A stretch of DNA of 64,000 nucleotides from Tenacibaculum sp. Bg11-29 (lineage in GTDB: Bacteria > Bacteroidota > Bacteroidia > Flavobacteriales > Flavobacteriaceae), in contig NZ_PJBB01000003.1 in the NCBI RefSeq assembly GCF_002836595.1, forward strand, positions 3,409,001 through 3,473,000, read 5' to 3'. Numbering within the stretch: the stretch's first letter is position 1; every line of letters begins with the position of its first letter. Under the pieces are notes generated by a model. That model worked only from the letters and a program-made list of their open reading frames with translations. It had not been told where the DNA came from and made no database searches. A program made the position numbers and the translations under genes. Of this stretch, positions 29,711-57,310 are shown one piece after another.

Positions 29711-29750
29711 ATATATGTACTGGTACATATATCCCGTTGTTGGCAAACAT
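29711..29750 (+). repeat. Cassette element A: palindrome plus right-hand core only
   Basis: A perfect palindrome ATATATGTAC-TG-GTACATATAT (29711-29732) runs directly into CCCGTTGTTGGCAAAC, the right-hand core of the cassette elements described at 30631 and 43101. The left arm is missing. It lies immediately before the lipoprotein start at 29751. It could be a collapsed element or an operator. Confidence 0.4.
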
Positions 29751-30623
29751 ATGACGAAAGACATTCTCTACATATTAATTAGCCTTTTGATTTTAAGTTG
29801 TTCATCGCAAAAAAACACACAAGGAAAATCTTATACTGAAAAGGAATTAGAAAAATCTATTCTTGTTGGAGATTTTCTATTTGTTGGAAAAACAGATAAT
29901 GACTCAATACCTAAAAAGAAAGTTATTAAAAAAGATGAACCTAAATTTAACCCGAATATTAATAAAGATTCTTTATTTAAAATTGTTATAAAAAAAGTTC
30001 ATCCAACTAAAGTAGAAGGATTAACAAAAGCATTTAATGAAGGAAACAATCAAGAAAGGGAATTTTTATTGATGATACTTTCTATGAATAAAAGTAGTAA
30101 AGAAGAACAAATAAACAACCTAAAAGCAAACGAGAGTAATATAAAAACACTTATCAAAGAATATTCTGTATTAGTTCCCGATAGCCTTATTGTCTATATT
30201 GAGTTTAATCCGAAAGATATTGTTTTCAATACAGACAAAAGTATAGACTTACGAATTTACTCAAATCGGAAAAACAAAAATGGCGGAATTGACCAAAAAT
30301 TCAGAGAATCAAATTTACCGTATAATTCAGAAGTTTTATTGGAACAAATAAACACTTTGGGCTGGAATAAAAAGACTTTAATGAATATTAAAAATTTACT
30401 TGACAATGCTAATTGTAACTCAATTAAAAACGGAAATATAACTACAGTTGGTTTTGCAAGAAGCGGAATGGGAAAATATTCATATAAGTTCTTTAAAAAC
30501 GATTTGAGTAAAGAAGAACAATCTGAATATAATGATGGTTGTTTATATGTTTATTATGAGAGAAATATTGTTTTAGAATTTGGAGGTGGTGCAATTGGAC
30601 AACAATGTTTTGAAAAAGAATAA
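29751..30623 (+). CDS. Hypothetical lipoprotein (first cassette-like gene)
   Basis: 290 residues from MTKDILYILISLLILSCSS, a proper lipoprotein signal. A longer frame beginning at 29715 adds 12 residues encoded by the palindromic element and is unlikely. The mature part is Lys/Asn-rich with a C-terminal beta region (NITTVGFARSGMGKYSYKFF, IVLEFGGGAIGQQCFEKE). No family recognised. The stop is only 7 bp before the left core of element B. Confidence 0.7.
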   Translation: MTKDILYILISLLILSCSSQKNTQGKSYTEKELEKSILVGDFLFVGKTDNDSIPKKKVIKKDEPKFNPNINKDSLFKIVIKKVHPTKVEGLTKAFNEGNNQEREFLLMILSMNKSSKEEQINNLKANESNIKTLIKEYSVLVPDSLIVYIEFNPKDIVFNTDKSIDLRIYSNRKNKNGGIDQKFRESNLPYNSEVLLEQINTLGWNKKTLMNIKNLLDNANCNSIKNGNITTVGFARSGMGKYSYKFFKNDLSKEEQSEYNDGCLYVYYERNIVLEFGGGAIGQQCFEKE

Positions 30624-30630
30624 AATACGA

Positions 30631-30766
30631 TTTGCTAACACCGTGTATAATTAATGGCTAGTTATCGCCTATTTATGAAAACCCTCGCGGATTTTCTATT
30701 CAGTTTTTATTTACTAAATTATGTGTTTGAAAACGCCACTAATCATACACAACAACGTTAGCAAAT
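30631..30766 (+). repeat. Cassette element B, complete attC-like site
   Basis: 136 bp. Outer cores TTTGCTAAC (30631-30639) and GTTAGCAAA (30758-30766) are exact inverted repeats. After unequal spacers (3 and 6 nt) come 16-nt arms, GTGTATAATTAATGGC (30643-30658) and GCCACTAATCATACAC (30735-30750), with two A.C oppositions. An inner hairpin GAAAACCC/GGATTTTC lies at 30677-30696 in the left half. The layout resembles a folded integron attC site. Confidence 0.75.
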
Positions 30767-30829
30767 ATTAAAATCAACATTTCGGTAACATTAATAAACA
30801 TTGCCAGACTTATAGGAAAACAATAATAT

Positions 30830-31885
30830 ATGAAGATAATCTTTAGTGTAATAATTTTATTAATATCAGATCAACTTGCGTTTGGGCAATCCCGAGAGAA
30901 AAAAATTGATTCAATTTGTCAGGCTATCCATAATAAAAATCCAAAAGTCGGAATGAGTTTAGGGTTTATAGACAATGGAAAGGAGTATTTCTTCAATTAT
31001 GGAAGAATCAGTCAGGAAGGTGATTTCAAAGTGGACGAAAATACAGTTTATGAAATCGGTTCTATTACAAAATTGTTGACTGCTAACTTAGTAGCACAAG
31101 CCCAAGGCGAAGGGAAATTGAAAATTGACGACTTTATAGGTAACTACTTACCGAAAGAATACATATTGTCCGAAAAAATAAAAGGTAAACTTAAAATTTC
31201 CGATTTAGCTTCCCATCAATCAGGTCTGCCGGATTTTGATTTTGGTAAACTTATAAAATTGAATCCTAAACAGCCTTTAGACATAAGCAAAGAGGCTATT
31301 CATTTCATCGTCAACGACAGTACGAAATTATCAAATTATGGTAATTATAGATACTCAAATATAAGCTATGTTTTAATGGGCATTATGTTAGAAAATATCT
31401 ACTCAAAAAGTTTTGACAAATTGGTAAAGGAAAAAATACTTGTTCCTTCAAAAATGAATAATACTTTGACAACGGATTTCAATGTTAAGAACAAAGTTGT
31501 TGGACACGATATAAATGGAGTACAGCAAGATTATTTTGTTTGGAATTCATTATTTGCACCAGCAGGTTTGCTAAAGTCGAACACATTTGATATGACAAAA
31601 TTGTTAAAAACACTTTTGTCAAATAAAGGAAAAATTGGAAAAGCAACTTCAGTAACAGAAAAAACGTTCTATAAAAACACCCAAATGGAAATAGGTTTCG
31701 GACAAGAAATAGAACGAAACGGAAATGACACTTTCTTTTATAAAGCAGGTGACACGTTTTCTTGTTCCTCGATTTTTGCTTACGACAAGAAATCAAATTG
31801 GGGAATAGTGATAATGATAAACCACAAAAATTCCGATTTGATAAGAGAGTTAATTAATACGATTTATGAACAAGCATTAGAATAA
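30830..31885 (+). CDS. Serine hydrolase of the beta-lactamase / PBP4-like class
   Basis: 351 residues with a signal peptide (IIFSVIILLISDQLAFGQ). The catalytic SxxK is SITK in YEIGSITKLLTANLV and the second motif is YSN in YRYSNISYVLMG. This is the class C beta-lactamase fold used by esterases, D-aminopeptidases and DD-peptidases; substrate unknown. It starts 64 bp after element B, and its stop lies 6 bp before a further left core (TTTGCTAAC at 31892-31900). Confidence 0.87.
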   Translation: MKIIFSVIILLISDQLAFGQSREKKIDSICQAIHNKNPKVGMSLGFIDNGKEYFFNYGRISQEGDFKVDENTVYEIGSITKLLTANLVAQAQGEGKLKIDDFIGNYLPKEYILSEKIKGKLKISDLASHQSGLPDFDFGKLIKLNPKQPLDISKEAIHFIVNDSTKLSNYGNYRYSNISYVLMGIMLENIYSKSFDKLVKEKILVPSKMNNTLTTDFNVKNKVVGHDINGVQQDYFVWNSLFAPAGLLKSNTFDMTKLLKTLLSNKGKIGKATSVTEKTFYKNTQMEIGFGQEIERNGNDTFFYKAGDTFSCSSIFAYDKKSNWGIVIMINHKNSDLIRELINTIYEQALE

Positions 31886-31899
31886 AAAACATTTGCTAA

Positions 31900-32329
31900 C
31901 AAAGAACTGAGGTAGAAAACAAATCTTTTCTTCATTAATTTTATGCAATATTATTCTAGATTCAAAATGCTACTACTTGGTATTTTGAGCTTTTATTTTT
32001 TTAATAAACACTACTTATTTTGACAAAACGGAAACATATTTTTCATCATAAGGCAAACCTGATTTTTCGATTGTAAAACTTTGTTTTATTAGCTTATTTG
32101 AAGCTGCTATTAAGGCTAGTTTTTTACTCTTTCCTTTGTTTACAATACGCTCATAAATATCTCTACATGCTTTATTATGTTTGCATGCATTAAAGGAACA
32201 TAAAAACAAGAGATTTCGTAACTTTTTATTACCAATACTTCTCCATATACATTAACCTTAATTCTCTCTTTTATTCTTTCTGATTTATAACTCTTAAATT
32301 TAATCTTTTTATTAAATTGCTAACTTAAG
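31900..32329 (-). mobile_element. IS110-like relic, left copy
   Basis: About 430 bp alike to 62125-62549 over the whole length, both starting at CAAAGAACTGAG. It contains the C-terminal end of an IS110-type transposase on the minus strand (32015-32239) plus flanking non-coding DNA. It cuts into a cassette element whose left core TTTGCTAAC sits at 31892-31900. The catalytic N-terminal domain is absent, so it is inactive. Confidence 0.75.
32015..32239 (-). pseudogene. IS110-family transposase C-terminal fragment
   Basis: Reads SIGNKKLRNLLFLCSFNACK, then HNKACRDIYERIVNKGKSKK and LALIAASNKLIKQSF, ending at YVSVLSK. This is the transposase_20 C-terminal region. An in-frame stop lies just upstream, and no DEDD catalytic domain remains. 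Confidence 0.8.
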
Positions 32330-32334
32330 ATGTA

Positions 32335-32381
32335 TAAAAAACATAGGGCTTTTGTTTTAACTCCAAAGTTCTGTGTTTTTT
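32335..32381 (+). terminator. Possible bidirectional terminator
   Basis: AAAAACATAGGGCTTT pairs with AAAGTTCTGTGTTTTT (three G.T pairs), followed by T residues. No obvious gene depends on it on the + strand. Confidence 0.3.
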
Positions 32382-32609
32382 TTATGAAGTCCACCAAATA
32401 TAAAATTTGACACTTTCAATAAAAAGATAAATACAAAATATTATATTTGGCTAAGTGCCAAACCTGAAACGTAGTGCTTATCACCTGCCCTATGTTTCTT
32501 ATAATAAACGTTGTACAGTATAAAAAAACAGTCCTCAACACAAACTTTATACATTAGAAAACTATGCAAATGAACGTTTCAAACATTGAAAAAAACTAAA
32601 TTTTAATTA
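32382..32609. other. Gene-free leader with a degenerate cassette-like segment
   Basis: No gene is visible. TTTGGC-TAAGT-GCCAAA at 32446-32462 and AAACGTTGTAC near 32507 hint at a decayed cassette element, but the arms do not pair. It serves as the upstream region of the AraC-type gene at 32610. Confidence 0.3.
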
Positions 32610-33740
32610 ATGGATTTAATTTTAGATTTCTTTTTGGTGGGTGGCATCGTAATTATTGCAATAATTTTATTGCGACTATTAAGAATTAAATCTAAAGAAC
32701 TACCTCAAAAAGTATTAATACTACTTTTTTTACTTCTGTTATTTGTAGCTATATACTTTTATGCTTTGTTACATAATATAAATTGGTTAATAAAACTCTG
32801 TTTTTTTCCAAATGATATAACAAAAATTACTTTAGGTCCTTTATTATTTCTATATGTAAAGTCTTTGTTTTTAAAAGAAGATAATTTGGTTAGGAATATG
32901 CTACCACAATTTATTCCTACTTTATTGTTTGCTTTCGGTATTACAATTCCAACGCTTCTATATACGAGTTTTAAAATTGATGTCTTTTCGTATGCATTAA
33001 AAGATTTTATATTCATTTTTTTTAGAATTGAAAGTTTCTATTTCATCCTATATTTGATTATTTCATTACAATTGTTATCAAAATATCAAAAATTAACCAA
33101 ATACAAATATTCGAACTTGACGAAGTTTGATTTTAATTGGATAAAGATTATGCTTTTGTCCACATTGGGTATTATAAGTGTTGATTTAATCCTTAAAACA
33201 TATGAGTCCTTTTTTGGTAATTTTCAATGGAATATCGACAATATTTCTGTATTAGCTATGATTGTTTTAGTTTCATATTTGGCATATTATGGTGTAAATC
33301 AATCTAAAGTATTATTACCAACCTTTTTGTTAGATAATGAAATTGAACCTGAAATTAATAAGAAAAAAAAGAAGACATTATCTTCTGATAAAAAAGAAGC
33401 GTTTGAAAATTTGAAAAACAAACTTGAACTTATTATAAAAACTGAACAGCCATATTTGGATGAAGATTTGACATTAGGAAAATTAGCAGAACAACTTTCT
33501 ACAACAGACAAAAAACTGTCCACAATGTTAAATCAATACTTGAACACTACATTTTATGATTTAATAAATAAGTATCGTGTAGAAGCTGTAAAAGTCAAGA
33601 TAAACTTGGATAGCTATAAAAATTATAACCTATTTGGAATTGCGTCCGAATGCGGTTTTAAATCAAGAACCAGTTTCAATAGAATTTTTAAAAAAGAAAC
33701 TGGACTCTCACCTTCTGACTTCAAAAAAAGTATTTCTTAA
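32610..33740 (+). CDS. AraC-family regulator with N-terminal multi-helix membrane domain
   Basis: 376 residues: seven or so membrane helices in residues 1-230 and a cytosolic AraC DNA-binding domain at about 280-376 (LTLGKLAEQLSTTDKKLSTMLNQ, LFGIASECGFKSRTSFNRIF, KKETGLSPSDFKKS). Such regulators sense an envelope signal and act on neighbouring genes. It precedes a TonB receptor, a DUF4249 lipoprotein and a small outer-membrane protein, so it probably controls that trio. Confidence 0.88.
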   Translation: MDLILDFFLVGGIVIIAIILLRLLRIKSKELPQKVLILLFLLLLFVAIYFYALLHNINWLIKLCFFPNDITKITLGPLLFLYVKSLFLKEDNLVRNMLPQFIPTLLFAFGITIPTLLYTSFKIDVFSYALKDFIFIFFRIESFYFILYLIISLQLLSKYQKLTKYKYSNLTKFDFNWIKIMLLSTLGIISVDLILKTYESFFGNFQWNIDNISVLAMIVLVSYLAYYGVNQSKVLLPTFLLDNEIEPEINKKKKKTLSSDKKEAFENLKNKLELIIKTEQPYLDEDLTLGKLAEQLSTTDKKLSTMLNQYLNTTFYDLINKYRVEAVKVKINLDSYKNYNLFGIASECGFKSRTSFNRIFKKETGLSPSDFKKSIS

Positions 33741-33849
33741 AGTTATTCAATGTTTTTTTTAACATATAATAACGCACCAATGCTTCTATTGGTCAATCTA
33801 AATCATTATAAATTTATTGATTTGTGGTCAAATTCTAAATTTATTAAAA

Positions 33850-37878: not shown

Positions 37879-38025
37879 AAAAACGTTGTATAACAACGTG
37901 TATGAGTAGTAGCGATTTGGTTTATAACTCAAATCGCTATTACTTTTTATTTTGTATTTTACTTCCCGAAAAGTAGTGCCTTTAAAATTGCTACTACTCA
38001 TACACAAAACCATTTGTTGCGTTAG
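37879..38025 (+). repeat. Cassette element E, complete attC-like site
   Basis: 147 bp. Arms GTGTATGAGTAGTAGC (37898-37913) and GCTACTACTCATACAC (37990-38005) pair perfectly over 16 bp. TATAACAAC on the left and GCGTTAG on the right are the cores. A left-half hairpin AGCGATTTG/CAAATCGCT occupies 37911-37938. Sequence differs from element B, but the pairing is kept, which argues for selected structure. Confidence 0.72.
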
Positions 38026-38079
38026 AACCTTGAATACAGCAAAAAAAAAGAATTTTACTGAGAATAAGAGATAAACTTT

Positions 38080-38985: not shown

Positions 38986-40032
38986 ATGCAATCTTTAAAA
39001 TATGTACCCAAATTGATGCGCGCTATTGTTTTCCGAAACTATGGTGCCCCTCAAGAAGTAATGGAACTTGTCGATGATAGGGAAATACCTAAGCCCAACA
39101 AGAATCAAGTTTTAGTGAAAATTGAATGTGCCTCTATTAATGCTGCCGATAGATATATTGTCCGAGCAAATTATTTTATTATTCGGATGGTTTTTGGACT
39201 GTTCAGACCTTCTAAGAAAAAAAGGATCTTAGGAATGGACATTGCTGGAACGATTCAACTCATCGGTAAAAATGTTAAGGGTTATCAAGTAGGTGATGCA
39301 ATCGTAGCTGATATTCGCAAATCCTTTGGAGGAGGTTTTGCAGAGTATGCAATCGTAAATGCTAAACACTTGGTCAAGAAGCCAGAAACCGTTTCTTTTG
39401 AGCAAGCCGCAACTGTGCCTATATCTGGCCAGGCTGCAATGATGGGAATAACACTTTGCTCAATTAATCCAGGAGATAAAGTGTTGATTAATGGTGCCTC
39501 TGGTGGAGTTGGATCTTTTGGTGTTCAGATAGCAAAAGCTCAGGGAGCCTATGTAACTGCAATATGTTCAACCAAAAAAGTTAACGCAGTAAGGGGTTGG
39601 GGAGCAGATGAGATTGTTGACTATAAAAAAAAGGACTCAATCAAAGCGTTAAAAGGAAATGAGTTTGATGCTGTTTTTGATACGGCATCTTTCGAATGTC
39701 CAGGCAGATACAAACAAATTTTAAAGAAAGATGGTAAATATGTATTAGTTGGAGGTGATTTTTACAATATGCTTAAGCTAAAACTTTTTGGCCGCTTCGA
39801 CCGTGGTAGTCAGAAATTTATGGCTTTAACTCAAGAGGTTGAAGTTACAAAAAATATAAAAACAGTGCTTGAAATGATTGCTGATAAAAAGATAAATCCC
39901 GCTATACAAAAAGTTATTTCCTTAAAAGACGTACCAAATGCTATTCATAGCCTTGAACAACGTACTGTGGTTGGTAAAATAGTTGTAAATCTAAATAAGG
40001 ATCAGCCTATTTATAAGAAAAACCAGTGCTAA
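38986..40032 (+). CDS. Medium-chain (quinone oxidoreductase-like) NAD(P)-dependent oxidoreductase
   Basis: 348 residues, or 338 if Met11 (39016, MRAIVFRNYGAPQEV) is the start, as the family usually begins there. GroES-like domain first, then a Rossmann domain with LINGASGGVGSFGVQIAKA. It lacks the catalytic zinc cysteine pattern, so it is zinc-independent. Substrate unknown. The TAA stop is supplied by the core TGCTAAC of element F, so gene and element overlap. Confidence 0.88.
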   Translation: MQSLKYVPKLMRAIVFRNYGAPQEVMELVDDREIPKPNKNQVLVKIECASINAADRYIVRANYFIIRMVFGLFRPSKKKRILGMDIAGTIQLIGKNVKGYQVGDAIVADIRKSFGGGFAEYAIVNAKHLVKKPETVSFEQAATVPISGQAAMMGITLCSINPGDKVLINGASGGVGSFGVQIAKAQGAYVTAICSTKKVNAVRGWGADEIVDYKKKDSIKALKGNEFDAVFDTASFECPGRYKQILKKDGKYVLVGGDFYNMLKLKLFGRFDRGSQKFMALTQEVEVTKNIKTVLEMIADKKINPAIQKVISLKDVPNAIHSLEQRTVVGKIVVNLNKDQPIYKKNQC

Positions 40033-40194
40033 CACTGTGTAAAAATGCATTAAAACGCATTTTACACTAACTGTCAGACTGTCTAAAAACCTATTTTTGT
40101 AACTTTAATATTCGGAGGGCTATCTTTAAAAAAAACAAATACAGGATTCTCTGAGGGGTTATTTTAAGTTATTAGACAGACTGCCGTTAGGCAC
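40026..40194 (+). repeat. Cassette element F, complete and divergent
   Basis: 169 bp. Cores GTGCTAAC (40026-40033) and GTTAGGCAC (40186-40194) pair with one extra base, and GTTAGGC fits the attC core GTTRRRY. Inside come a hairpin GTGTAAAAATGC/GCATTTTACAC (40037-40067) and a stem GTCAGACTGTCTAA (40073-40086) with TTAGACAGACTGCC (40172-40185). It overlaps the stop codon of the oxidoreductase gene, and the CPBP gene starts 59 bp later. Confidence 0.7.
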
Positions 40195-40252
40195 AATGTA
40201 ACAAAACTTATACCCAATCCTCTTCCAAGAGTAAATCGACCTATAGACCAAA

Positions 40253-41107
40253 ATGCTAGAAAAAAAATCAGAACGCAAAGAGACTTGGAAAACAATCTTT
40301 ATTTTCCTAATTATTGTTACAATTGTAAGCACCCCATTTTATCTTGCAATTGTTAATTTATATCCTTCTCGAATATACGTTGGTGCACTCATGTGGTGTC
40401 CAGCAATAGCTGCAATAATCACAATAAAACTAAAAGGACAACCTATTTCTTCCATACATTGGAAATGGGCAGATTGGAAATATATTCGCATGTCTTACTT
40501 TATTCCTGCTATTTATGTTTTAATTACTTATATACTCATCTGGATTTTTGGATTAGGAGGATTGTCGAATGAAGAGAACATTATGGAATGGGCTACAGAA
40601 CTTGGATTAGTTGGAATTGGGACATTAAAACCAACGTTTGCCGTAATCATAGGTGCTATTTTACTAGGAACTGTAGGCGTTACAAGGGCAATGGCAACGG
40701 TTTTAGGAGAAGAAATAGGGTGGCGAGGTTTTTTAATATATGAATCAAGAAAGGTTCTTTCTTTTACCGGTGTTTCCCTTTTTGTTGGATTTATCTGGGC
40801 ATTCTGGCATTGGCCAATATTAGTGTATTACAGTGAAAATGTCACTTTAGAATTTATAACTTTTTTTGTTTTTGTAATTTCGATGTCATTTATTATGACC
40901 TACTATACTTTTAAATCTAAAAGTATATGGCCAGCAGTAATCTTTCACTCAGTAAGTAATGTATACATTCAGAAAATATTTCCTCCTTTAATAGAAAAAA
41001 TTGAAGGAACTGAACACTGGCTTGGGGAGAACGGAATTATGTTTGCGATTGTAACCTTTATCATTGGAATATACTTTTGGAGAAAAGCAATTAAAGAAAA
41101 ATTATAA
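40253..41107 (+). CDS. CPBP-family intramembrane metalloprotease
   Basis: 284 residues, about eight helices. The motifs GEEIGWRGFLI (EExxxR), FIWAFWHWP (FxxxH) and a third conserved histidine in AVIFHSVSNV are all present, so the site seems intact. Relatives process prenylated or bacteriocin-type peptides, or give self-immunity. A decayed second copy lies at 42883-43085, on the far side of the alkaline phosphatase pseudogene. Confidence 0.88.
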   Translation: MLEKKSERKETWKTIFIFLIIVTIVSTPFYLAIVNLYPSRIYVGALMWCPAIAAIITIKLKGQPISSIHWKWADWKYIRMSYFIPAIYVLITYILIWIFGLGGLSNEENIMEWATELGLVGIGTLKPTFAVIIGAILLGTVGVTRAMATVLGEEIGWRGFLIYESRKVLSFTGVSLFVGFIWAFWHWPILVYYSENVTLEFITFFVFVISMSFIMTYYTFKSKSIWPAVIFHSVSNVYIQKIFPPLIEKIEGTEHWLGENGIMFAIVTFIIGIYFWRKAIKEKL

Positions 41108-41144
41108 CATATAAATAAACTGACTTAATAATCAATAAAATTTG

Positions 41145-42835
41145 ATGAGTACCCTAATAAAAACAATAATCTCAATTTTAATACTATATATAATTAATTT
41201 TAATTTTTCTTATGGGCAATCTGATGGCTTAAAGAAACCAAAATTGGTTGTTGGGATTGTGTAGTAGATCAAATGAGGTCTGAACAAATGTATCGATATG
41301 CAGCTAAATATAGCGAAGATGGTTTTAAAAGAATTTTACGAGATGGATTCAATTTTAAAAACACCCAATATAACTATACGCCTACGGTTACTGCAGCAGG
41401 GCATTCTTCAATATATACGGATACCACACCATCTACACATGGTGTTATAGCCAATAGCTGGTTCAATCGTTATAAAAATAAATATGCAAAAAGTGTTGAA
41501 AACACTACTGTTGTATTGATTGGTAGTAAAATTAAAAATAATATTGGATCCTCTCCCAAACAGTTATTAACGACTACAATTTCTGACCAACTTCGTATGA
41601 ATACTAATTTTAGATCAAAAGTAATTAGTGTTTCATTAAAGGACAGAGGAGCAGTTTTACCTGGAGGTCATCTCGCTAATGCAGCATATTGGCATGATAT
41701 TGAAACAAGTCCCGGATATTTTGTTTCTAGTTCTTACTATATGGATAAGTTACCCAAATGGGTTAGTAAGTTTAATAAATTAGAAAAATCAAGTAAATAT
41801 TTAGATACGGTTTGGAATACGTTTTACCCAATAGAGAGTTATATTAAAAGTTATGGAGATAACAATAAATATGAGCTTGTTCTTCGAGAAGACAACCCTA
41901 CTTTTCCTTATGACTTTAGAAAACTTCGCGTAAAATACAGAAAAAGAAATATAGAATATTTGATGTTAGGGTTTTCTCCAGCAGGAAATAAATTGCTCAC
42001 TGAATTTGCTATAGATGCCATTAAAAATGAAGACTTAGGCAATCATGAAGATACCGATATGCTAACTATTAGCTATTTTGTAACCGACAAAGCTGGACAT
42101 GTTTTGGCCCAAATTCAATAGATGTTGAAGATATTTATATACTATTAGATCATGAAATAAGTAAGCTTTTAAAATATTTAGATAAGAATATTGGCAAGGG
42201 AGAGTATACTCTATTTCTGACTTCAGATCACGGAGTGATTCCTATTGCGTCTTATCTAAATGATATCAACATACCAACAGGAGTAGTAAGAATGACTAGA
42301 TATAAAGACCAATTAGAAAAACATTTAAACACTAAATACGGAGAAGACACGTGGATTCAAAATTTTGATGATGAACAATTATATTTAAATAGAGATGCTA
42401 TTTTAGAAAAGGGAGTTCAACTAAAGAATATCCAGCAAGATGCAGTTGATTTCTTGGTAAATATTGAAGGAATTAATAGTGCTTTAACTGCATATCACGC
42501 AAACCAGTCAATATAATTCGGGCTTGAAAAAGCATGCTCAAAATGGTTATAATCAAAAAAGATCTGGAGATGTAATTTTAACTTTTAATACTGGTTTCGT
42601 TCAAGATGATGATTCTGAAATCGACGTGTCTTCAGTAAAGGGAACCATTCATGGTTCGGGATATGGTTATGATCCCCATGTGCCTTTACTTTGGTTTGGA
42701 AACGGAATATCTTCTGGGGAATCAGTAAAGCAAGTTTCACCTATAGACATCTCATCAACCCTTACAATGATGCTCAATCTTCAATTGCCAAGTGGAAATA
42801 CTGGAAATCCATTAAGAGAATTATTTAAGTATTAA
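41145..42835 (+). pseudogene. PafA-like alkaline phosphatase, broken by three frameshifts
   Basis: The frame opens with a signal peptide (STLIKTIISILILYIINF) and continues KPKLVVGIV, then hits TAG at 41262. The homologous frame resumes as DQMRSEQMY. A one-base loss in a T-run near 42103 breaks HV/FGPNSIDVEDIY, and a third shift occurs near 42500 before NSGLKKHAQNGYNQ. Preserved motifs are TPTVTAAGHSSIYTDTTPST (nucleophile region) and TSDHGVIPI (metal site). Total length about 560 residues, as in PafA. Several lesions make a sequencing artefact less likely. Confidence 0.8.
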
Positions 42836-42882
42836 CTCAATAAGTCTTTTAATTAAAATGAAATACAATTAAGAGAAACAAT

Positions 42883-43085
42883 AGTTAACTTATATCCTTT
42901 TCAAATATTTATCGACGAATTTATGTAGTGTTCAATGTTAGTTGATATAATAACGTTGAAATTGAAAGGAAGGTCTATTTCTTCTCCAAACTTGGAATTG
43001 AGAAAGCGCAATTATATTTACGATTGTAACCTTTGTCTTTGGAATATACCTTTTGAGAAAAGCAGTTAAAGAAATTTATAAAATA
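42883..43085 (+). pseudogene. Internally deleted second CPBP protease copy
   Basis: Nucleotides 42883-42920 and the GGTCTATTTCTTC part correspond to the CPBP gene around 40348-40455. After a large deletion, 43020-43080 (GATTGTAACCTTTG, GGAATATACCTTTTGAG) corresponds to the gene end around 41046-41100. It is a truncated paralogue, not a chance match, and ends about 15 bp before element G. Confidence 0.7.
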
Positions 43086-43100
43086 GAAATATAAAACACA

Positions 43101-43236
43101 GTGCCTAACGTGTATAATTAATTTCTTTGACAAGTGCTTATTTGGAAAATTCCTTCGGAATTTTCTCTGGTTCGTATTTGTTTACTAAATTAGTTGCTTA
43201 AACACGCAACTAACCATACACAAGCACGTTGGCAAT
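43101..43236 (+). repeat. Cassette element G, complete attC-like site
   Basis: 136 bp, the same length as element B. Cores TGCCTAAC (43102-43109; GCCTAAC fits RYYYAAC) and GTTGGCA (43228-43234). Arms GTGTATAATTAATTTC (43110-43125) and GCAACTAACCATACAC (43206-43221) show three A.C and one T.C opposition. Inner hairpin GAAAATTCC-TTC-GGAATTTTC lies at 43145-43165. An IS3 element begins 5 bp after it. Confidence 0.75.
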
Positions 43237-43280
43237 AATTATGACCCGTCCTGAAATGAGGCTACATAATTTTAAACATT

Positions 43281-43652
43281 ATGTACAGAAATGACAAAGT
43301 AATTAGACGTTACAGTGAACTTTTTAAATTAAAAATTTTAGCCGAACTTACTATCGGTAAACACACAAAGAGCGAACTTTGTAAACTCTACTCTATCGCA
43401 CCTACAACAGTAAATCTGTGGATTAAAAAATACAACCGTAAAGACTTAATGAATACCAGAGTAAAATTGGAAACTAAAGACGAAATATCTAGAATTAAAG
43501 CACTTCAAAAAGAGGTGGAACAACTTAAAAAACTACTCCTTAAAAAGGATCTGGATGCTATGGTACAAGATTCTTATCTAGAAGTAGCAGCAGAAGATCT
43601 AGGTTATAAATCTGTTAATGAACTAAAAAAAAAGCTAAGTATAAAGCCTTAA
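43281..43652 (+). CDS. IS3-family transposase OrfA
   Basis: 123 residues: helix-turn-helix (KLKILAELTIGKHTKSELCK LYSI region) and a leucine-zipper-like helix (ALQKEVEQLKKLLLKKDLD). Translation may slip -1 on the A9G run near its end to make the OrfAB fusion transposase, as known for IS3 relatives. Confidence 0.85.
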   Translation: MYRNDKVIRRYSELFKLKILAELTIGKHTKSELCKLYSIAPTTVNLWIKKYNRKDLMNTRVKLETKDEISRIKALQKEVEQLKKLLLKKDLDAMVQDSYLEVAAEDLGYKSVNELKKKLSIKP

Positions 43653-44503
43653 TAAAAACCAAAGAGAAATCTAAGGGGTTTGCTTCTTTAACTACCATAT
43701 CTAATTGTTTTGGACTTAAACGTAATGCTTATTACAAGTATAAAAAAAGAACTGATAAACGTTTAATCCTAGAACAACAGATTATAAATATTGTTAGAAA
43801 AAGACGCAAATCTCTTCCTAGAGAAGTTGTACGTAAACTTATTAGGTCTCTAGATAAAGAGTTCATTAATGCCAATATTAAAATTGGTAGGGACACGTTA
43901 TTTAAAGTACTTAGAAAGTATAAAATGCTTACTCTTAGAAAGAAAACTAGTGCTAGAACAACCAATTCGTATCATCGTTTTTATAAGTACAATAACATTA
44001 TTAAAGACATGAAAATTAATAGACCTAATCAAGTTTAGGTATCTGATATCACATACATTAAAACCATAAAAGGGTTTTGCTATTTGGCTTTAATAACGGA
44101 TATGTATTCTAGGAAAATAGTAGGTTATGATCTTAGTGACAGCTTAGAATTAAAAGGATGCGTGAGAGCACTTAATAAAGCCATTTATCAAGCTAAGAAC
44201 ATTAAACAGCTCATTCATCATTCTGACAGAGGAATACAGTATTGTAGCAATATTTATACACAAATACTTAAAAGAAAAAAGATAGATATTAGTATGACTG
44301 AACAAAATCATTGTTACGAAAATGCCATGGCTGAACGCGTAAACGGAATATTAAAAGACGAATTTTATCTCGATCAAACCTTTGAAAACGTAGCACATGC
44401 AAAGAGGGCTGCAAAAAGTGCAATTAATTTATACAATGAAATAAGATTACACTTATCTTTAAACTATAAAACACCGAATATGGTATACAAATTATCAGCG
44501 TAA
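43634..44503 (+). pseudogene. IS3-family transposase OrfB with a Trp-to-stop change
   Basis: The -1 frame encodes the integrase-core protein: AYYKYKKRTDKRLI, then RPNQV, TAG (44036-44038), VSDITYIKTIKGF, HHSDRGIQYCS and NHCYENAMAERVNGILKDEF. The DDE residues (Asp in SDITYI, Asp in HSDRG, Glu in MAERVN) are present. Relatives read QxWVSDITYI, so TGG has become TAG. The product would lack the whole catalytic core. Confidence 0.82.
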
Positions 44504-44560
44504 AATCAATTTTAACCTGTAGCCGTATTTCAGGACAAGACATTAAAAAACTAGTAAGCA

Positions 44561-45197: not shown

Positions 45198-45587
45198 ATG
45201 ACAAACACGAAAATTGTAGAGACATTCTTAAGTGGATTTAATTCCCCTGAAAAACTATCTGAATCAATTGCACTATTAGCTGACGATTATAGATTTAAAG
45301 ACCCAACGAAAGAAAATAATTCGAAGGCGGAATTTTTAGTAACAGCACAAGAATTAGGAAAAGTTTTAACTGGAGTTGAAATTATTAAAGTGGCAGAAAA
45401 TGGTGAATCAGTCGCTGTTCTCTATAATTTCAAATCCGACGTAAAAGGGTTAGAAAATAATTTTGGTTCAGAATGGTTCAGAATAGAAAACGGATTAATT
45501 AAAGAATCACAACTTGTGTATGATGCTACTGAATGGAGGAAAGTGTTTGCAAAAAAAAAAAAAAACTATTGCCACCAACGTATATAA
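45198..45587 (+). CDS. SnoaL/NTF2-like small protein
   Basis: About 129 residues from MTNTKIVETFLSGFNSPEK; an ATG 15 bp earlier is also in frame. The fold is suggested by the FLSGFNSPEKLSESIALLAD helix pair and the strands YRFKDPTKEN and SEWFRIENGLIKESQLVYD. It may be a cyclase-like or ligand-binding protein. Near the C-terminus a run of 15 A's (45551-45565) encodes KKKKK, and the frame then reads into element H, whose bases provide the stop. Confidence 0.75.
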   Translation: MTNTKIVETFLSGFNSPEKLSESIALLADDYRFKDPTKENNSKAEFLVTAQELGKVLTGVEIIKVAENGESVAVLYNFKSDVKGLENNFGSEWFRIENGLIKESQLVYDATEWRKVFAKKKKNYCHQRI

Positions 45588-45701
45588 AGAATAGCAGTTA
45601 AGAGCTAAATCTAAAGTTAGTTCTTAACTGTTATCTTTGTTTTAAATTGAAAAATAGTATACATTAATTTGCTACTTTTCATATACAAAACCGTTGTAAA
45701 A
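45569..45701 (+). repeat. Cassette element H, degenerate but paired
   Basis: About 133 bp. Arms GTATATAAAGAATAGC (45580-45595) and GCTACTTTTCATATAC (45671-45686) pair with two A.C and one G.T opposition. The cores TTGCCACCAAC and CCGTTGTAAAA are worn. Inner hairpin CAGTTAAGA/TCTTAACTG at 45595-45630 is in the left half, as in other elements. It overlaps the end of the SnoaL-like gene. Confidence 0.6.
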
Positions 45702-45736
45702 CATTTAAGAACTCCATCGAATGCCTCTTCCATGAT

Positions 45737-46411
45737 TTAAAAACTATTTAAAACTATTTTCCTTAAACGAATGCTTATAGGGATTTCATAATCACCAATA
45801 ATAATTTGATTTTCTATAATTTTATCTACTTTGAATTTTGAAACTATATATGACTTATGCGTTTGAATAAAACTACCTTCTGGTAATTGGTCTTTAAAAC
45901 TCTTTAAAGACATATGTGTAATAATGGTTTCTTCTGGTGTTACTACTTTAATATAATTTTGCATTCCTTCCACAAATAAAATATCGTTTAAGTTTACCTT
46001 TTTAAGCTGTTTTTCACTTTTCAAAAACAGTACTTTGGCTTCAGTTTTATGACTGTAATAGTTATTAACTTTATTAACTGCCAGTAAAAAACGCTCAAAT
46101 GAAATTGGCTTTACTAAATAATCTAAAACGTTATATGTGAAACTTTCCAGAGCATACTCCTCATATGCAGTTGTCATAATAACTGAAGGGGAGTTTTTTA
46201 AGCCTTTTAACCAATCAATACCTGAAACTATGGGCATATTGATATCTAGAAAAACTAAATCGATTTGATTCTCTTCTAGATAATGGTTTGCTTGCAACAC
46301 ATTCTTACATAAAGCAATAACATTTAAAAACGAAATCTCTTTACAATAGTCTGCAATGCCTTCTCTAGCAATAGGCTCATCATCGATAATTAAACAATTG
46401 AGTTGTTTCAT
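45737..46411 (-). CDS. LytTR-family response regulator
   Basis: 224 residues. Receiver domain with Asp in VFLDINMPIVSG and TTAYEEYALESF; LytTR DNA-binding domain at about 130-224 (LNDILFVEGMQNYIKVVTPE, SFIQTHKSYIVSKFKVD). Cognate partner of the kinase gene 7 bp upstream. This pair is the only minus-strand insertion in the accessory block and faces away from the hydrolase operon at 47582, which it may control. Confidence 0.93.
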   Translation of the reverse strand: MKQLNCLIIDDEPIAREGIADYCKEISFLNVIALCKNVLQANHYLEENQIDLVFLDINMPIVSGIDWLKGLKNSPSVIMTTAYEEYALESFTYNVLDYLVKPISFERFLLAVNKVNNYYSHKTEAKVLFLKSEKQLKKVNLNDILFVEGMQNYIKVVTPEETIITHMSLKSFKDQLPEGSFIQTHKSYIVSKFKVDKIIENQIIIGDYEIPISIRLRKIVLNSF

Positions 46412-46418
46412 ATTAATA

Positions 46419-47450
46419 TTATAAACTAATATATAGGTTTACTATATGATTACATTTGTTTTTTTTAATGTCCAATTGGTGTTTATCTGGGTATAATAAT
46501 GATAACCGTTTTTTTACATTGACCAGCCCTATTCCACCAATTCTATTCTCATATATTGATTCATCATAACTATTTACTACATTGAGGTGAATCTTCCTTT
46601 CTGCTTCTTCAATTTTAATTCTAATGATATTTGCATTACTATCTATATGATTACTACAATGTTTAAAAGCATTTTCAATAAAAGGAATAAGTAATAAGGG
46701 AGCTATTTTTAATTTCGAGTTTCCTGATTTAATATCATAATTCAATTGAATATCTGAACCCCTTCGAGTTTTTTCAATTTTTATATACTTCATTACGAAG
46801 TCTAATTCTTTTTCTAACAAAATATGAGTGTTACTTTCGTAGAGTTGATACCTTAATAAGTCAGAAAACTGGTGTAAAGTCTCTTTCGCTAAGGTATCGT
46901 TTTTACCAATTAAATGATAAACACTATTAATACCATTAAATAAAAAATGAGGGTTTAATTGTGCTTTTAAATATTTTAATTCTGTTTTATAGTTTTCTTC
47001 TAACAAAGCCTGGTTTAATTTTTCTGATTTTTTGTATTCAAATTTCAGAATATAGTAAAACCCCGCAATACTGTATAGTATATGAACGATTGTATTAGTG
47101 TTAAAATTTGCATCTATTGGCTGGTCATTTACACCGTAAAAATTAAGAAGCAAATAATCAAAATAAGCTTCAGTTAAAGAAACTAAAAGAATTATAAAAA
47201 TCGAAACTACATAAAACATCCTTTTTTTATCTTGAATATATATTTTTGGAAACAACCAAAAAATTTGTAAGTAAAACAAAAGAGCATTAAAAAAAAGTCC
47301 GTAGAGATATGCATATTGAAAACTACCTGAATCATAAGTAAACCCATTCCAATTAAGCTTAGTAGCAAAAGCTATTAACCAATAGTTAAATAGCCAAAAC
47401 AGAATATGTCCAGCGAATAAAGTTGTTTTAGTTGTATTTAATTTACGCAT
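46419..47450 (-). CDS. LytS-like sensor histidine kinase
   Basis: 343 residues: four or five membrane helices in residues 10-145, then a His_kinase domain with the phospho-acceptor LNPHFLFNGINSVYHLIG and an ATPase part (IAPLLLIPFIENAFKHCSNH, GIGLVNVKKRLSLLYP). Senses an unknown envelope cue and phosphorylates the LytTR regulator. Confidence 0.93.
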   Translation of the reverse strand: MRKLNTTKTTLFAGHILFWLFNYWLIAFATKLNWNGFTYDSGSFQYAYLYGLFFNALLFYLQIFWLFPKIYIQDKKRMFYVVSIFIILLVSLTEAYFDYLLLNFYGVNDQPIDANFNTNTIVHILYSIAGFYYILKFEYKKSEKLNQALLEENYKTELKYLKAQLNPHFLFNGINSVYHLIGKNDTLAKETLHQFSDLLRYQLYESNTHILLEKELDFVMKYIKIEKTRRGSDIQLNYDIKSGNSKLKIAPLLLIPFIENAFKHCSNHIDSNANIIRIKIEEAERKIHLNVVNSYDESIYENRIGGIGLVNVKKRLSLLYPDKHQLDIKKNKCNHIVNLYISL

Positions 47451-49956: not shown

Positions 49957-49971
49957 CGTGTGCTAACAATC
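49957..49971 (+). repeat. Cassette element I, left core only
   Basis: GTGTGCTAACAATC sits 5-18 bp after the M23 gene stop; no arms follow. The next reading frame opens at 49985, so most of the element has been lost. Confidence 0.45.
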
Positions 49972-50734: not shown

Positions 50735-50741
50735 TAAAATA

Positions 50742-50815
50742 CAGGTAACACCGTGCATAATTAATTGCTAGTACAAGCTTATTTGCGAATTTAGTTGTTG
50801 AAATACGAAACGAAA
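50742..50815 (+). repeat. Cassette element J, left half only
   Basis: GGTAACACCGTGCATAATTAATTGC copies the left arm of element B, then GTACAAGCTTATTTGCGAAT and TTAGTTGTTGAAATACG resemble the middle of elements B and G. The right arm is lost. It begins 7 bp after the preceding stop codon. Confidence 0.6.
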
Positions 50816-50866
50816 TCCTTTCAAGATTTTAATCAGATTATATATTGAAACTTGTAATAAAAAATT

Positions 50867-50968
50867 ATGGTATCAACATCAAACAATTTATTGCAAGACT
50901 TATTAGAGCTTACTCGTGAAAATCTAAACATCGTAGAAAATTTAAACAATGAAAAATTACAACTTTAT
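50867..50968 (+). pseudogene. N-terminal relic of a DinB-like gene
   Basis: MVSTSNNLLQDLLELTRENL then [14 protein letters not shown] resembles the first helix of DinB/DUF1569 four-helix proteins; after that the frame is out of register. Its end merges with the start of the PD40 pseudogene, suggesting an illegitimate junction. Confidence 0.4.
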
Positions 50969-51846: not shown

Positions 51847-51895
51847 GAAGTAACAATAAATTTTGAACACATAATTTTAAAACTAACTTAACATA

Positions 51896-51996
51896 CGTTT
51901 GGCAACAACGTGTATAATTAATTTCTGGGGTCTATTTATACTCGGAAAACCCTACAGATTTCCCTAACGTTCGGTTTCCTTTTGCTAAATTAGTTA
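51896..51996 (+). repeat. Cassette element K, truncated by a solo IS3 end
   Basis: TTTGGCAACAACGTGTATAATTAATTTC has a left arm identical to that of element G. The middle (CTAAATTAGTTACG) matches the interior of element G, and then the right arm is replaced at 51997 by an IS3 right end. Confidence 0.65.
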
Positions 51997-52040
51997 CGTA
52001 AAATTAATTTTAGCCTGTAGCCGTATTTCAGGACAAGACA
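51997..52040 (+). mobile_element. Solo right end of the IS3 element
   Basis: 44 bp nearly identical to the last 44 bp of the IS at 43242-44542, including its 25-bp terminal repeat (52016-52040). No body or left end is present, so an insertion was lost by deletion, taking the right half of element K with it. Confidence 0.7.
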
Positions 52041-52067
52041 TTTAAAGTATAACTAACAATTTTAAAA

Positions 52068-53015: not shown

Positions 53016-53081
53016 AAAAATTAAACAAAATGCTAAATCCCCTAACCAACATCTTTACATAAACTTAAAATATTATATAAC

Positions 53082-53831: not shown

Positions 53832-54016
53832 TTTTGTAGTATTCATTGTTTCTAAAATAAAAAATATAAGAGTATTAAACAGATACGAAAACTTAAGTAA
53901 TTTAAAGAAAAACAGTTTTGTTGAGTGATTTTATGAAACCATTGGTATTAAGTTAATAGAATTAATTTTAAAAAAGGAGAGCTCAGACAGTATGAATGAA
54001 TCAAAAATTAAACATT

Positions 54017-54736
54017 ATGAAAACAGTAAATTACATCTTACTAATTGCAATTGTTTTGTCAGGTACTTTAGTACAATCTCAGAAAAAAAAAGAATCAAAA
54101 TCCTCTTGGGAGAATGTTTCTGAATCAAAAGTTGATATAAGAGCGTACCCTTATATTACTCCGTCAAAAGGAATGGTTGTTGATAAAAATGAATCTAAAT
54201 CATATGTGTTTGATGGAAACACACTTTTTGTTCTTAATGGTAAAGTAGAAAGATTACGGATAATAATGGATGGAGACAAAGAGTGGCAACAATATTTATT
54301 TGACAAAAGCGTATCAGAATATTTAAAATCAATAGGCGAAAAATTGATTTTTGATCGCCAAATACCTTATGAACTAACACAAAAATGGGAAGATACGCCT
54401 AATGCAGTTTACAAATACATGCAAGAATTTTACGTTGGAGATGTGGTTAATGGACCAATAAGTATGTACGTACTTAAAACAGTCGATAGGAAAATAGGTT
54501 TTCAAATTTCTTCAAAATATAAAACTATAGGAGTTGTGGAAAACGAAAATTTTAAACAAACTATAGAGAAAGTTACAGCCGATGATATTTTAGATAAAAT
54601 TAATACCAAAGGTTATGCAACGCTACATATTAATTTCGAGACTGGTAAATCAAGAATTAAAACTGATTCATACGGTGTTATTAATGAAATAGCAAAAATG
54701 ATGAAAGCAAATAAAACAAAGAAAGAAGTAATCTAA
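54017..54736 (+). CDS. Exported protein with truncated OmpA-like C-terminus
   Basis: 239 residues from MKTVNYILLIAIVLSGTLVQSQ (signal peptide; an ATG 21 bp earlier is weaker). The last 40 residues, GYATLHINFETGKSRIKTDS and YGVINEIAKMMKAN, are the beginning of an OmpA/MotB peptidoglycan-binding domain. The frame then ends with KTKKEVI before the conserved GHTDNxG part. It is truncated or fused by deletion; function doubtful. The following 225 bp contain no gene I can support. Confidence 0.65.
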   Translation: MKTVNYILLIAIVLSGTLVQSQKKKESKSSWENVSESKVDIRAYPYITPSKGMVVDKNESKSYVFDGNTLFVLNGKVERLRIIMDGDKEWQQYLFDKSVSEYLKSIGEKLIFDRQIPYELTQKWEDTPNAVYKYMQEFYVGDVVNGPISMYVLKTVDRKIGFQISSKYKTIGVVENENFKQTIEKVTADDILDKINTKGYATLHINFETGKSRIKTDSYGVINEIAKMMKANKTKKEVI

Positions 54737-54961
54737 ATTTTGTATAATGATTTTATGAAATTAGATAAAAAAATAATTTCTAAATTCCTAATTAATGCAG
54801 ATACTGAAGATTATTGATCTTGACCGCTATAATAAGTTCTTAAAAGAAATATTGAACTAATAAAAATAAAAGAGCATATCAATTTGTATAATGCATGTGC
54901 GCACTTCGGAATGTGAACGCAGTATGTAATGCTGGTTTCTCAAAAATATAAAACGACGAAA

Positions 54962-55633
54962 ATGAAAAAAACTATTTTATTAACACTAATTATTTTAGGG
55001 ATAATTACTTGTTCAAATAATAATGATAACACCCCTAAGACTGTTATTGATGATGGTGTAAATCAAAATTTATTAACTTATCAAATATCAAATAGTAATG
55101 TTTTTAGCACAACACCTGAACAAGTCAAAAATGCTAGTTTTAACACCATTACCCTTAAAGAAGGTTTTATAACTTCTAAGCTAACTTCTCGTCTAGGTAA
55201 ATTCGAAGAAGCGAAAAAATTGGATTTAAATTTACAAATTACAAGACAAACTAAGAAACCGAAATTTGAAGTTGGTTCTTTTAGTTTAGCTGGTCCCGAG
55301 ATCATAATAAATGCTTTTATATCTCCTAAAAACACAACGTTTGCAGTCATTAATTCCATAAGTATAAAAGAGTATCAAATCTTAAAATCTTTAGATAAAC
55401 TGGAAGAGCTCAAAGATAAATTTGTTTTCCATCCGAATTCTGATAATAAATTAATTATTGAAAAAGTAGAAGATAGGAAAGAACTTGAAAATGACGCTAC
55501 TGGTAATTATAAAATCGGTTCTCAGTTATTAGAAGGATATGCGCTAATTTATTTAATGGAAATAAATTCTAATGAAATTTTTTCTATACGATTAGATTTT
55601 AGTTTAATTAATGACATTAGATTAAGAATGTAA
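54962..55633 (+). CDS. Hypothetical lipoprotein
   Basis: 223 residues from MKKTILLTLIILGIITCSNNN (lipobox IITC with an Asn/Asp tail). An upstream in-frame ATG at 54929 would spoil the signal. The mature part has no recognised domain. It is followed by another gene 51 bp later. Confidence 0.65.
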   Translation: MKKTILLTLIILGIITCSNNNDNTPKTVIDDGVNQNLLTYQISNSNVFSTTPEQVKNASFNTITLKEGFITSKLTSRLGKFEEAKKLDLNLQITRQTKKPKFEVGSFSLAGPEIIINAFISPKNTTFAVINSISIKEYQILKSLDKLEELKDKFVFHPNSDNKLIIEKVEDRKELENDATGNYKIGSQLLEGYALIYLMEINSNEIFSIRLDFSLINDIRLRM

Positions 55634-55684
55634 TGATCTAAAAAACACTTTTACTAACAACTTTAACACAAATTAAACACTAAA

Positions 55685-56506
55685 ATGAATCAAACTTTTG
55701 GATGTATAATTATACAAAAAGAGAATAAACTTCTCTTTAAGAATAGAATTTCAAAATCAGTTTCACATATAGGGCTAAAAATACTAACAAAAAGCTCACA
55801 AGTTTATAAACTAGAAGACTATTTAGTACATAATGAATTAAAAGAGAATGAAATACTTACTACCGAAATAGAAGGTAAATTTTTAATTTTAGGGCATTCT
55901 CTATATTTTCTCATTAATGAAGATTATTTAGGAGTTGTTATACAAGCGAAAAGAACCTTGTTTCACTTTACTCAACATGGAAAAAGTGAAGAATATGGTT
56001 ATAAATATTATTTCAAGGGTAATTTATGTACGCACGAAATTTGTTTTGGAGAAAATTATGATTTTTTTTCCAAAAATTGGATTCAAGATAATGGGGTAAA
56101 ATTACCTCAATCTATTCATCGAGAAAATGCATTAAATGCATTTTCTAAAGAAAAGAAAATACCCCTGGAGTTACTCAGGTTACTTAAAATGTCACTGCCT
56201 CGAAAAGGAATGTCTTCTCTATTTTTCCATCCTATAAAACAACAATGGGTTTATGGAAAAGGAATGACTAAAGTAAATCCTTTGAAAATCACTTTTCAGG
56301 AGCTAGCACCACAGGGTCATAAAAGGGGGAAACCTTTTGTTATTGATAAAAATTCATATGAAAAAGGGCTGCTTATAAGTTGGTCCCAATTGTTTTATGA
56401 ATTGCATCATAGATCAATTAAAGAAATCACTGGGTTTAGATTTGATTACCCTAAAGAGTTTCCTATAAATTTAATTTTTACTAAATATGAAATATTTTCA
56501 AAATAG
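55685..56506 (+). CDS. Hypothetical cytoplasmic protein
   Basis: 273 residues, no signal peptide and no membrane segment. Visible blocks are IIIQKENKLLFKNRISKSVS, a His-rich CTHEICFGENYDFFSKNW and GMTKVNPLKITFQELAPQ. I do not recognise a family. Its end overlaps the start of the lipoprotein gene by 20 bp, so the two are probably translated together. Confidence 0.6.
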   Translation: MNQTFGCIIIQKENKLLFKNRISKSVSHIGLKILTKSSQVYKLEDYLVHNELKENEILTTEIEGKFLILGHSLYFLINEDYLGVVIQAKRTLFHFTQHGKSEEYGYKYYFKGNLCTHEICFGENYDFFSKNWIQDNGVKLPQSIHRENALNAFSKEKKIPLELLRLLKMSLPRKGMSSLFFHPIKQQWVYGKGMTKVNPLKITFQELAPQGHKRGKPFVIDKNSYEKGLLISWSQLFYELHHRSIKEITGFRFDYPKEFPINLIFTKYEIFSK

Positions 56507-57254
56507 AGCCTTAATCTACATTTTATTAATAGCTATATGTCTTTTAAACTCTTGTGCTATACCTAGTGAATTTGATTCACAAATGATGGTTGTTTCAGAA
56601 AAAGGGTATGGCGTTATAGTTTCTAAAATAACTCAACACAATAAATTAGAAGTACCTGTTAATATCGTTACAGATAGTATTTATATGAACCCTTCAATTC
56701 CTGGATATTATAATTATAGTACTTCATTGCGAAAATCTAAACAAATCCCAAAATCAAAACTTCCTAATTATTTAACATTTGAGTATCAATATATAAAACT
56801 ATCTGATTGTAATAATGTACGTAAAGAAAAAATGGTCAAATTAATTTTTCTCAAAGACTATTCTCCAACAGAGAAAGGGAATATTATAGAAATGAGCGAA
56901 GATAAAGCTAATTCTTATATTAAAAGGGATTCACATATAGCCACTTTAGCTTCAATGATAAATAAGAAAATTTCAAAGGAAAATCTTTTAAAAAAATATG
57001 AAAAAGAACTCAAAGTTGCCAAAGTATATTACAACAAATCTAAATGTAAAACACAAACGCCTATTGACTCCTTAAAGTTCACTAAAACTATAGATTTAAG
57101 GCCATATAAGAAATCAAAAGAAATCAAAAGATTTAGGAAAAAACACAAAAATGACGCGGGTAGTTACTATGGAACAACAATTATATATCAATTTTATGAT
57201 AGTGGTGAAATTAAATTACATTTAGAAAATTACCATACTAACCCATGGAAGTAA
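56487..57254 (+). CDS. Hypothetical lipoprotein ending at a cassette core
   Basis: 255 residues; lipobox in YILLIAICLLNSCAIP. Lys-rich mature part with KKISKENLLKKYEKELKVAK and a C-terminal YYGTTIIYQFYDSGEIKLHL. No family recognised. Overlaps the preceding gene by 20 bp, and its TAA lies 2 bp before a cassette left core (TTTTGCTAAC). Confidence 0.6.
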   Translation: MKYFQNRALIYILLIAICLLNSCAIPSEFDSQMMVVSEKGYGVIVSKITQHNKLEVPVNIVTDSIYMNPSIPGYYNYSTSLRKSKQIPKSKLPNYLTFEYQYIKLSDCNNVRKEKMVKLIFLKDYSPTEKGNIIEMSEDKANSYIKRDSHIATLASMINKKISKENLLKKYEKELKVAKVYYNKSKCKTQTPIDSLKFTKTIDLRPYKKSKEIKRFRKKHKNDAGSYYGTTIIYQFYDSGEIKLHLENYHTNPWK

Positions 57255-57255
57255 C

Positions 57256-57310
57256 TTTTGCTAACAACGTTAATAAAACATAACTCATAATTGCTTTACG
57301 AGAGGTTTAT
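57256..57310 (+). repeat. Cassette element L, left half only
   Basis: TTTTGCTAACAACGTTAATA carries the same left core as elements B and K, 2 bp after the stop of the lipoprotein gene. The arm is poorly conserved and no right half follows before the Crp-type gene. Confidence 0.45.

Follow-up and report, generated by a model that had tools for sequence, protein, structure and literature searches.

The locus described here raises the question of whether a run of repeated elements, set between unrelated small genes, is an integron. It lies in Tenacibaculum sp. Bg11-29 (genome of 4.54 Mb in three contigs) within a stretch of 64,000 nucleotides, C3:3409001–3473000, which we refer to as the window; coordinates without a prefix are window positions, and "own" denotes the genome, recombinase, and sites of this strain. 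The initial annotation, made from the letters alone, had read the elements as attC-like and the locus as a possible divergent Bacteroidota cassette system. That reading is supported by a covariance model that finds such sites across the family, by a recombinase gene that stands at the heads of the arrays, and by exact units that recur in related arrays. We consider it very probable that the window holds a gene-cassette array that is headed by an attI, lacks an integrase of its own, and belongs to an integron-type system of Flavobacteriaceae. Among the matches listed in a survey of open-licence papers, without preprints, there was no report of integrons in Flavobacteriaceae genomes, which is weak evidence of absence.

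Sites and cassettes in the window

Covariance model R1 rests on 20 sites of the own genome, including window site 30627–30768. It gave 49 matches in that genome at E ≤ 1, far beyond chance, with clusters at C3:2114–2131 kb, 3950–3972 kb, 4503–4525 kb, and in the window, plus single sites. Five window matches had E-values of at most 2.2e-5 each; the copies at 40021 and 50737 reached 23 bits only (E about 0.15). The copy at 30631 aligned by blastn to 21 places in the genome, itself included.

About ten copies had been listed initially. Five are clear attC-like sites, and the orientation shared by the window sites is confirmed. Three others (31892, 49957, and 57256) are left cores, and the copy at 50742 is decayed. 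The copy at 29711, taken at first for half an attC, is better taken as an attI: positions 29676–29773 align to the last codons of the own recombinase gene and the DNA that follows (blastn E 3e-18). Because this copy matches the 3' end and attI of the own recombinase, we read the window array as attI-headed and without its own integrase. A tblastn search with the own recombinase as query found no integrase in the window, as the initial annotation had stated. Among the copies described as complete, those at 30631, 37879, and 43101 are clear R1 sites, whereas the copy at 40026 is complete only in part. The genes between copies are indeed unrelated and on the plus strand, except for two at 45737–47450 on the minus strand. 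The features of the array are the following.

29676–29741, plus strand: attI copy, with a worn recombinase-gene 3' tail, a 22-bp palindrome (29711–29732), CCCGTT, and the crossover G|TT between 29739 and 29740
29740–30757, plus strand: cassette 1, with one plus-strand gene (listed start 29715, first in-cassette ATG 29751, stop at 30623; no Pfam match)
30631–30765, plus strand: intact attC, 141.6 bits with R1, one of the 20 model sequences
30758–31900, plus strand: cassette 2, with a gene at 30830–31885 (PF00144, serine beta-lactamase-like/esterase family)
37885–38026, plus strand: attC with divergent inner sequence (R1 match 37882–38023, 57.8 bits)
40026–40194, plus strand: attC with an inverted-repeat insert (R1 23 bits, E 0.16 for 40021–40084; cores and repeats by reading)
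40187–43228, plus strand: cassette with an Rce1-like CAAX protease gene (40253–41107) and a frame-broken phosphodiesterase gene (about 41150–42835); end cores fit at 9 of 9 bases
43101–43236, plus strand: attC (R1 match 43097–43239, 96.4 bits)
43245–44540, plus strand: IS3-like insertion located just within the next cassette; its transposase spans two frames, of which the second is broken
45566–45700, plus strand: attC with a worn left core (R1 match 45564–45704, 59.7 bits)
49958–49967, plus strand: left attC core only, by sequence reading
50740–50880, plus strand: decayed attC (R1 23.1 bits, E 0.15)
51899–52041, plus strand: attC (R1 match 51894–52028, 41.8 bits), its right end replaced by an end remnant of the same insertion sequence (IS; about 52004–52041)
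57256–57265, plus strand: left attC core only, by sequence reading

Read base by base, the cores at the two ends of a cassette fit each other. The start and end cores of cassette 1 are complementary at eight of nine bases. Cassette 2 terminates at the left core 31891–31900, the remainder of its attC having been lost; its start GTTAGCAAAT is the exact complement of its end ATTTGCTAAC, and 30757 and 31891 fit at 10 of 10. Likewise, the right core GTTAGGCAC of the 40026 site is the exact complement of GTGCCTAAC at 43101, with 40186 and 43101 fitting at nine of nine.

About 115 bp of inverted-repeat sequence (about 40072–40183; TGTCAGACTGTCTAA / TTAGACAGACTG) lies between L' and R' of the 40026 site and resembles a miniature inverted-repeat transposable element (MITE). 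The phosphodiesterase-like gene at 41150–42835 (PF01663) is split into several frames. The element at 43245–44540 is presumably of the IS3 kind, judging from our reading of its sequence; relatives of it stand beside attC in two genera (window 43245–44540 and 52004–52041; arrays L097 and L098 of genome G105), and such elements could either travel in cassettes or choose attC.

Site fold and cassette units

For the consensus of the 20 model sites, the bottom strand folds at −19.1 kcal/mol versus −9.0 kcal/mol for the top strand. Ten other genomes contributed 128 sites, which were fitted to the model. Of their 2940 cells, 95.0% were paired (31%–56% in slid controls); two-sided changes occurred in 15 of 23 pairs, and covariation was 0.323 versus 0.123 after shuffling; the alignments, A3 and A4, were fitted to the model structure, which favors the pair counts. 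The bottom strand was the more stable in 123 of these sites and held 601 G.T pairs versus 51 A.C, with three pairs being G.T in at least 121 of the 128. Complementary R and L boxes and a bottom-strand fold, as in integrons, are thus present in the sites. Extrahelical bases in the L box are a feature of IntI attC sites; here the L helix is unbulged in 115 of the 128 sites (in the model register), with an extra T in one column in 11.

Two further observations concern the sites themselves. The inner attC motif TATTTACTAAATTAG (e.g., 30703–30725) is conserved beyond the needs of the fold; it resembles a Bacteroidota −7 promoter box, and each attC may carry a promoter. In addition, a module of about 93 bp (TTAGCAAAAAG...) with a terminator-like hairpin starts exactly at G|TT after six attC (L019–L022), and similar pieces occur elsewhere. 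We rejected it as an ordinary cassette start, since the six copies are alike over about 93 bp and differ beyond that point, and those tested misfit the next attC. It may serve as a marker of array ends, or it may be an attC-targeting element.

In an integron cassette, the bases after the G|TT at its start complement the bases before the AAC at its end, because both pair in the circle. We examined 55 sites picked by hand from the R1 matches, leaving out weak matches and those cut by a locus end. Neighboring sites were complementary at 6.11 of 7 bases on average, 25 of the 45 pairs perfectly and 35 at six bases or more. All other site pairs averaged 2.69 (21 of 2925 perfect), and sites paired with themselves averaged 2.82 (one of 55 perfect). 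None of 20,000 permutations reached the observed sum of 275 (maximum 172). Complementarity between attI and the first cassette was 6 or 7 of 7 in five out of five cases. In an automatic test, 74 of the 128 sites from the ten other genomes had an exact copy of the expected 10-mer no more than 3 kb downstream and four had one upstream, compared with 42 of 2507 controls.

Units delimited in this way also recur as duplicates. Cassettes c4 and c11 of locus L038 are identical over 761 bp with unlike upstream DNA (28 of 60 bases), and c2 and c6 of L042 (357 and 359 bp) agree at 95% and have differing neighbors. Among 698 alignments of duplicate segments, mostly intra-genome (673 within one locus set), both copies of 444 had their right end at an attC G|TT, and 87 alignments began at one; the corresponding figure for random inner points was 11 of 3490. 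In five loci from named genomes, 23 of 34 cassettes had one plus-strand frame covering at least 70% of the unit, with its start 10–47 bases in, and the remaining cassettes had shorter frames, later ones, or no long one.

These data bear on the simplest alternative, in which the copies are dispersed repeats, such as MITE-like or terminator-like hairpins, and just happen to lie between genes. Single copies outside arrays would suit such repeats, as would copies between phage genes; a folded site could also end transcription. The alternative is already contradicted by complementarity that runs between neighboring sites and not within a site, by duplicate units that end at G|TT, and by the confinement of arrays to one side of one gene family, and we give it almost no credence.

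Comparison with relatives at the window locus showed a large block that is missing from four of five.

28568–64000, no strand: window part of a 44–45-kb block absent in relatives, continuing to C3:3482004–3482884

Homology of the left flank to G511, G521, G557, G506, and G524 stops at 28567 or slightly before. DNA from C3:3482004–3482884 (L027 9004–9884) lies within about 0.2–1.2 kb of the left flank in G511, G521, G557, and G524; the 20 kb covered in G506 did not show the right flank. With the flanks this close together in four out of five relatives, the 44–45 kb that include the array are therefore present here and absent there, and no R1 sites were found in six stretches of relatives at this locus.

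Recombinase genes and attI at array heads

The own genome has one full-length gene for the recombinase (C3:2090137–2091261; search at E ≤ 1e-60), with its own attI and one cassette site lying alongside. The protein scores 234.6 bits against a cut-off of 220 for NF040815 (site-specific tyrosine recombinase/integron integrase; XerA-like), and of the other members tested, two scored over and three under. It differs from that family description in being tied to an attI and cassette arrays and in an extra N-terminal part of about 100 residues. With TIGR02249, the profile for IntI, it scores 198.6 bits against a cut-off of 265 (177.7 to 208.7 for five other members), and all TIGR02249 matches in the own genome fall below the cut-off, so no canonical IntI was found there. 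Catalytic residues R235, K263, H324, R327, H350, and Y359 are invariant in the alignment. The closest relative from a named organism is that of Tenacibaculum piscium (80% identity), and two further relatives are equally close.

A tyrosine recombinase gene of this kind heads arrays of R1 sites well beyond this strain. Relatives were seen at array heads in Aquimarina, Cellulophaga, Winogradskyella, Flaviramulus, Xanthomarina, Saonia, and others (27 loci), plus the family genomes. A co-oriented site lies within 2.5 kb on the 3' side in 34 of the 43 recombinase loci with at least 700 bp of 3' sequence (31 of 39 when genes fetched twice are counted once), and on the 5' side in none of 62 loci. For this count, the nearest sites were entered by hand, the 5' side was checked by eye, a 23-bit match in L078 was scored as none, and only loci with a gene recovered as an open frame were included. 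In 17 of 63 loci, <250 bp was left after the gene, with a contig end in at least ten; contig ends at this place are expected beside a repeat. The arrays can be long: one in G097 spans about 68 kb and comprises about 90 sites.

The attI lies just after the recombinase stop codon. It therefore stands beside the integrase gene, as in integrons, but on its 3' side. Palindromes with arms of at least 9 bp follow 31 of 44 group A genes, compared with 0 of 176 shuffled flanks and three of 44 5' flanks; outside group A they follow one of 12 genes. The G|TT comes a few bases past the palindrome. Seven other places in the own genome align over the attI, one being the recombinase's own attI, and the copies at C3:2113124 and 2728727 stand before further cassette sites in the same orientation. 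No full-length recombinase was found beside the further attI copies at C3:2113124, 2701969, 2728727, 4228843, 4515395, and 4517650 (L018, L139–L141, L022).

Other recombinases were also noted. Two of 405 and 414 aa near two own clusters, were set aside because they match only 94 and 65 profile positions and because the attI evidence pointed to C3:2090137. NF040815-like genes under the family cut-off lie inside arrays at L102:8931–9641 and L094:17493–18773.

We scanned 120 genomes of the family and 296 of the phylum with R1, keeping the best ≤26 matches per family genome and the best ≤10 per phylum genome. Sites were found throughout Flavobacteriaceae, in 109 of the 120 genomes (E ≤ 1e-3), and in 43 of the 296 (E ≤ 1e-5, with stricter filters). 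The recombinase was found in 79 of the 120 (E ≤ 1e-60, groups A and B combined). IntI over the TIGR02249 cut-off was found in none of the 120 family genomes, among which no control genome matched; the same search gave 107 of 392 in the phylum. R1 sites also occur in Polaribacter and Tenacibaculum phages, and a site on a T. finnmarkense plasmid is 89.5% identical to an own-genome site. Most sites in phages Danklef_1, JQ, and P12002L (L146, L147, and L144) are opposite in direction to the neighboring genes.

Could the window simply be a cluster of attC lacking integron-integrases (CALIN, an IntegronFinder term), in which standard attC cassettes are moved by the canonical IntI of other bacteria and the local recombinase is a bystander of Xer type? 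As judged from R1 sites, the window resembles a CALIN in having several attC <4 kb apart (37882, 40021, which is weak, 43097, and 45564) and no integrase found beside them; unlike a CALIN, it begins with an attI copy. R1 matches sites in genomes of other phylum classes that own canonical IntI, including one in G183 about 1 kb 5' of the IntI gene, and the 107 phylum genomes with IntI over the cut-off likewise speak for this explanation. One study (PMC9892861) describes recombination of attC2 of Polaribacter phage P12002L with attI1 by IntI1, on the bottom strand only, whereas phage attC1 did not recombine; this result also counts in favor of our own reading. R1 detects sites in P12002L, one of which may be attC2. 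Against a role of foreign IntI stand its absence over the cut-off from all 120 family genomes, the start of arrays soon after the local recombinase in most loci, and the position of attI at the end of its gene, and we regard this explanation as distinctly improbable.

Relation to IntI integrons

Like sedentary chromosomal integrons with IntI, the system has a tyrosine recombinase gene, an attI, and a one-way array of mostly single-gene cassettes, and its attC have R and L boxes, a bottom-strand fold, and a G|TT boundary. Unlike them, it has a recombinase under the TIGR02249 cut-off, its array lies on the 3' side and is co-oriented with the recombinase gene, the L helix is mostly unbulged with conserved G.T pairs on the bottom strand, and the attI after most group A genes is palindromic. 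The additional domain within the catalytic part of IntI is missing as well: From the box II motif to HxLRH there are 58–60 residues in 58 recombinases versus 100 in 12 IntI, an insert of about 42 residues being absent (the remaining five of 63 entries, including two cut genes, had no match to the motif). Since the system departs from IntI in the profile cut-off, the insert, and the extrahelical bases, yet has attI, attC, and exact cassette units ending at G|TT, we classify it as a variant of the integron.

Its origin was approached with a recombinase tree, in which IntI is a separate clade (100/100) with a long stem and these recombinases group with IntI against four Xer rows (99/98). The tree has long branches and a thin outgroup, and was not used for placing IntI relative to these recombinases. 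One alternative, which overlaps our reading and differs only in origin, is that the recombinase lineage adopted attC-type folded sites independently of IntI. The single, long-stemmed IntI clade and the lack of the insert in all 58 measurable recombinases favor such convergence; opposed to it are the grouping with IntI, albeit with the thin and long-branched outgroup, the C-terminal (K/S)(N/S)PxD motif common to IntI and many, not all, of these recombinases, and the R1 matches in genomes with IntI. The lineage may be a sister of IntI or derived from it, and we hold a convergent origin to be unlikely.

Several observations weigh against an integron-type system run by this recombinase. The recombinase lacks a domain that Messier and Roy are said to have found necessary for IntI activity in 2001. 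No site lies within 2.5 kb in nine of the 43 recombinase loci, and three of the 11 family genomes without R1 sites carry the recombinase. The fit between neighbors is poorer in the own genome, where nine of 15 pairs fit at only five bases or fewer, compared with 29 of 30 in other loci that fit at 6 or 7 (of ten misfit pairs, nine are in the own genome and one in the other loci). Of the 128 sites from other genomes, 54 have no exact partner, and of 25 duplicate alignments between different loci, one ended and none began at G|TT. At the window locus, strains were not seen to differ by a single cassette. Finally, the link of the window array to C3:2090137 rests on attI similarity, and 24 kb separate this gene from the closest large cluster of own sites.

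The sequences themselves show the sites, the cassette ends, the attI, the recombinase at array heads, the covariation, and the strand bias. A mechanism consistent with these data would run as follows. Each cassette begins with the TT after the crossover G|TT and ends with its own attC; an NF040815-type recombinase without the IntI insert would cleave attC at G|TT while its bottom strand is folded, and cassettes would be released as circles and then inserted at attI. The window array would most likely be an old integron after loss of its integrase gene, and it may still be served in trans by the recombinase at C3:2090137. We infer a divergent integron lineage whose recombination and strand cutting would be the work of this recombinase; the enzyme may act in trans and may be active at present.

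We see about an even chance that Flavobacteriaceae harbor a family-wide integron lineage that works without the IntI insert, in which strand choice comes from the conserved G.T pairs of an unbulged attC helix, the attI is palindromic and 3', and one integrase serves dispersed attI-headed arrays in trans. Such a lineage would either predate the insert, as a sister of IntI, or derive from loss of both the insert and the extrahelical bases. Should the recombinase be active, searches based on IntI would have overlooked a large reservoir of mobile genes, and the need of the IntI insert for recombining folded single-stranded sites would become directly testable.

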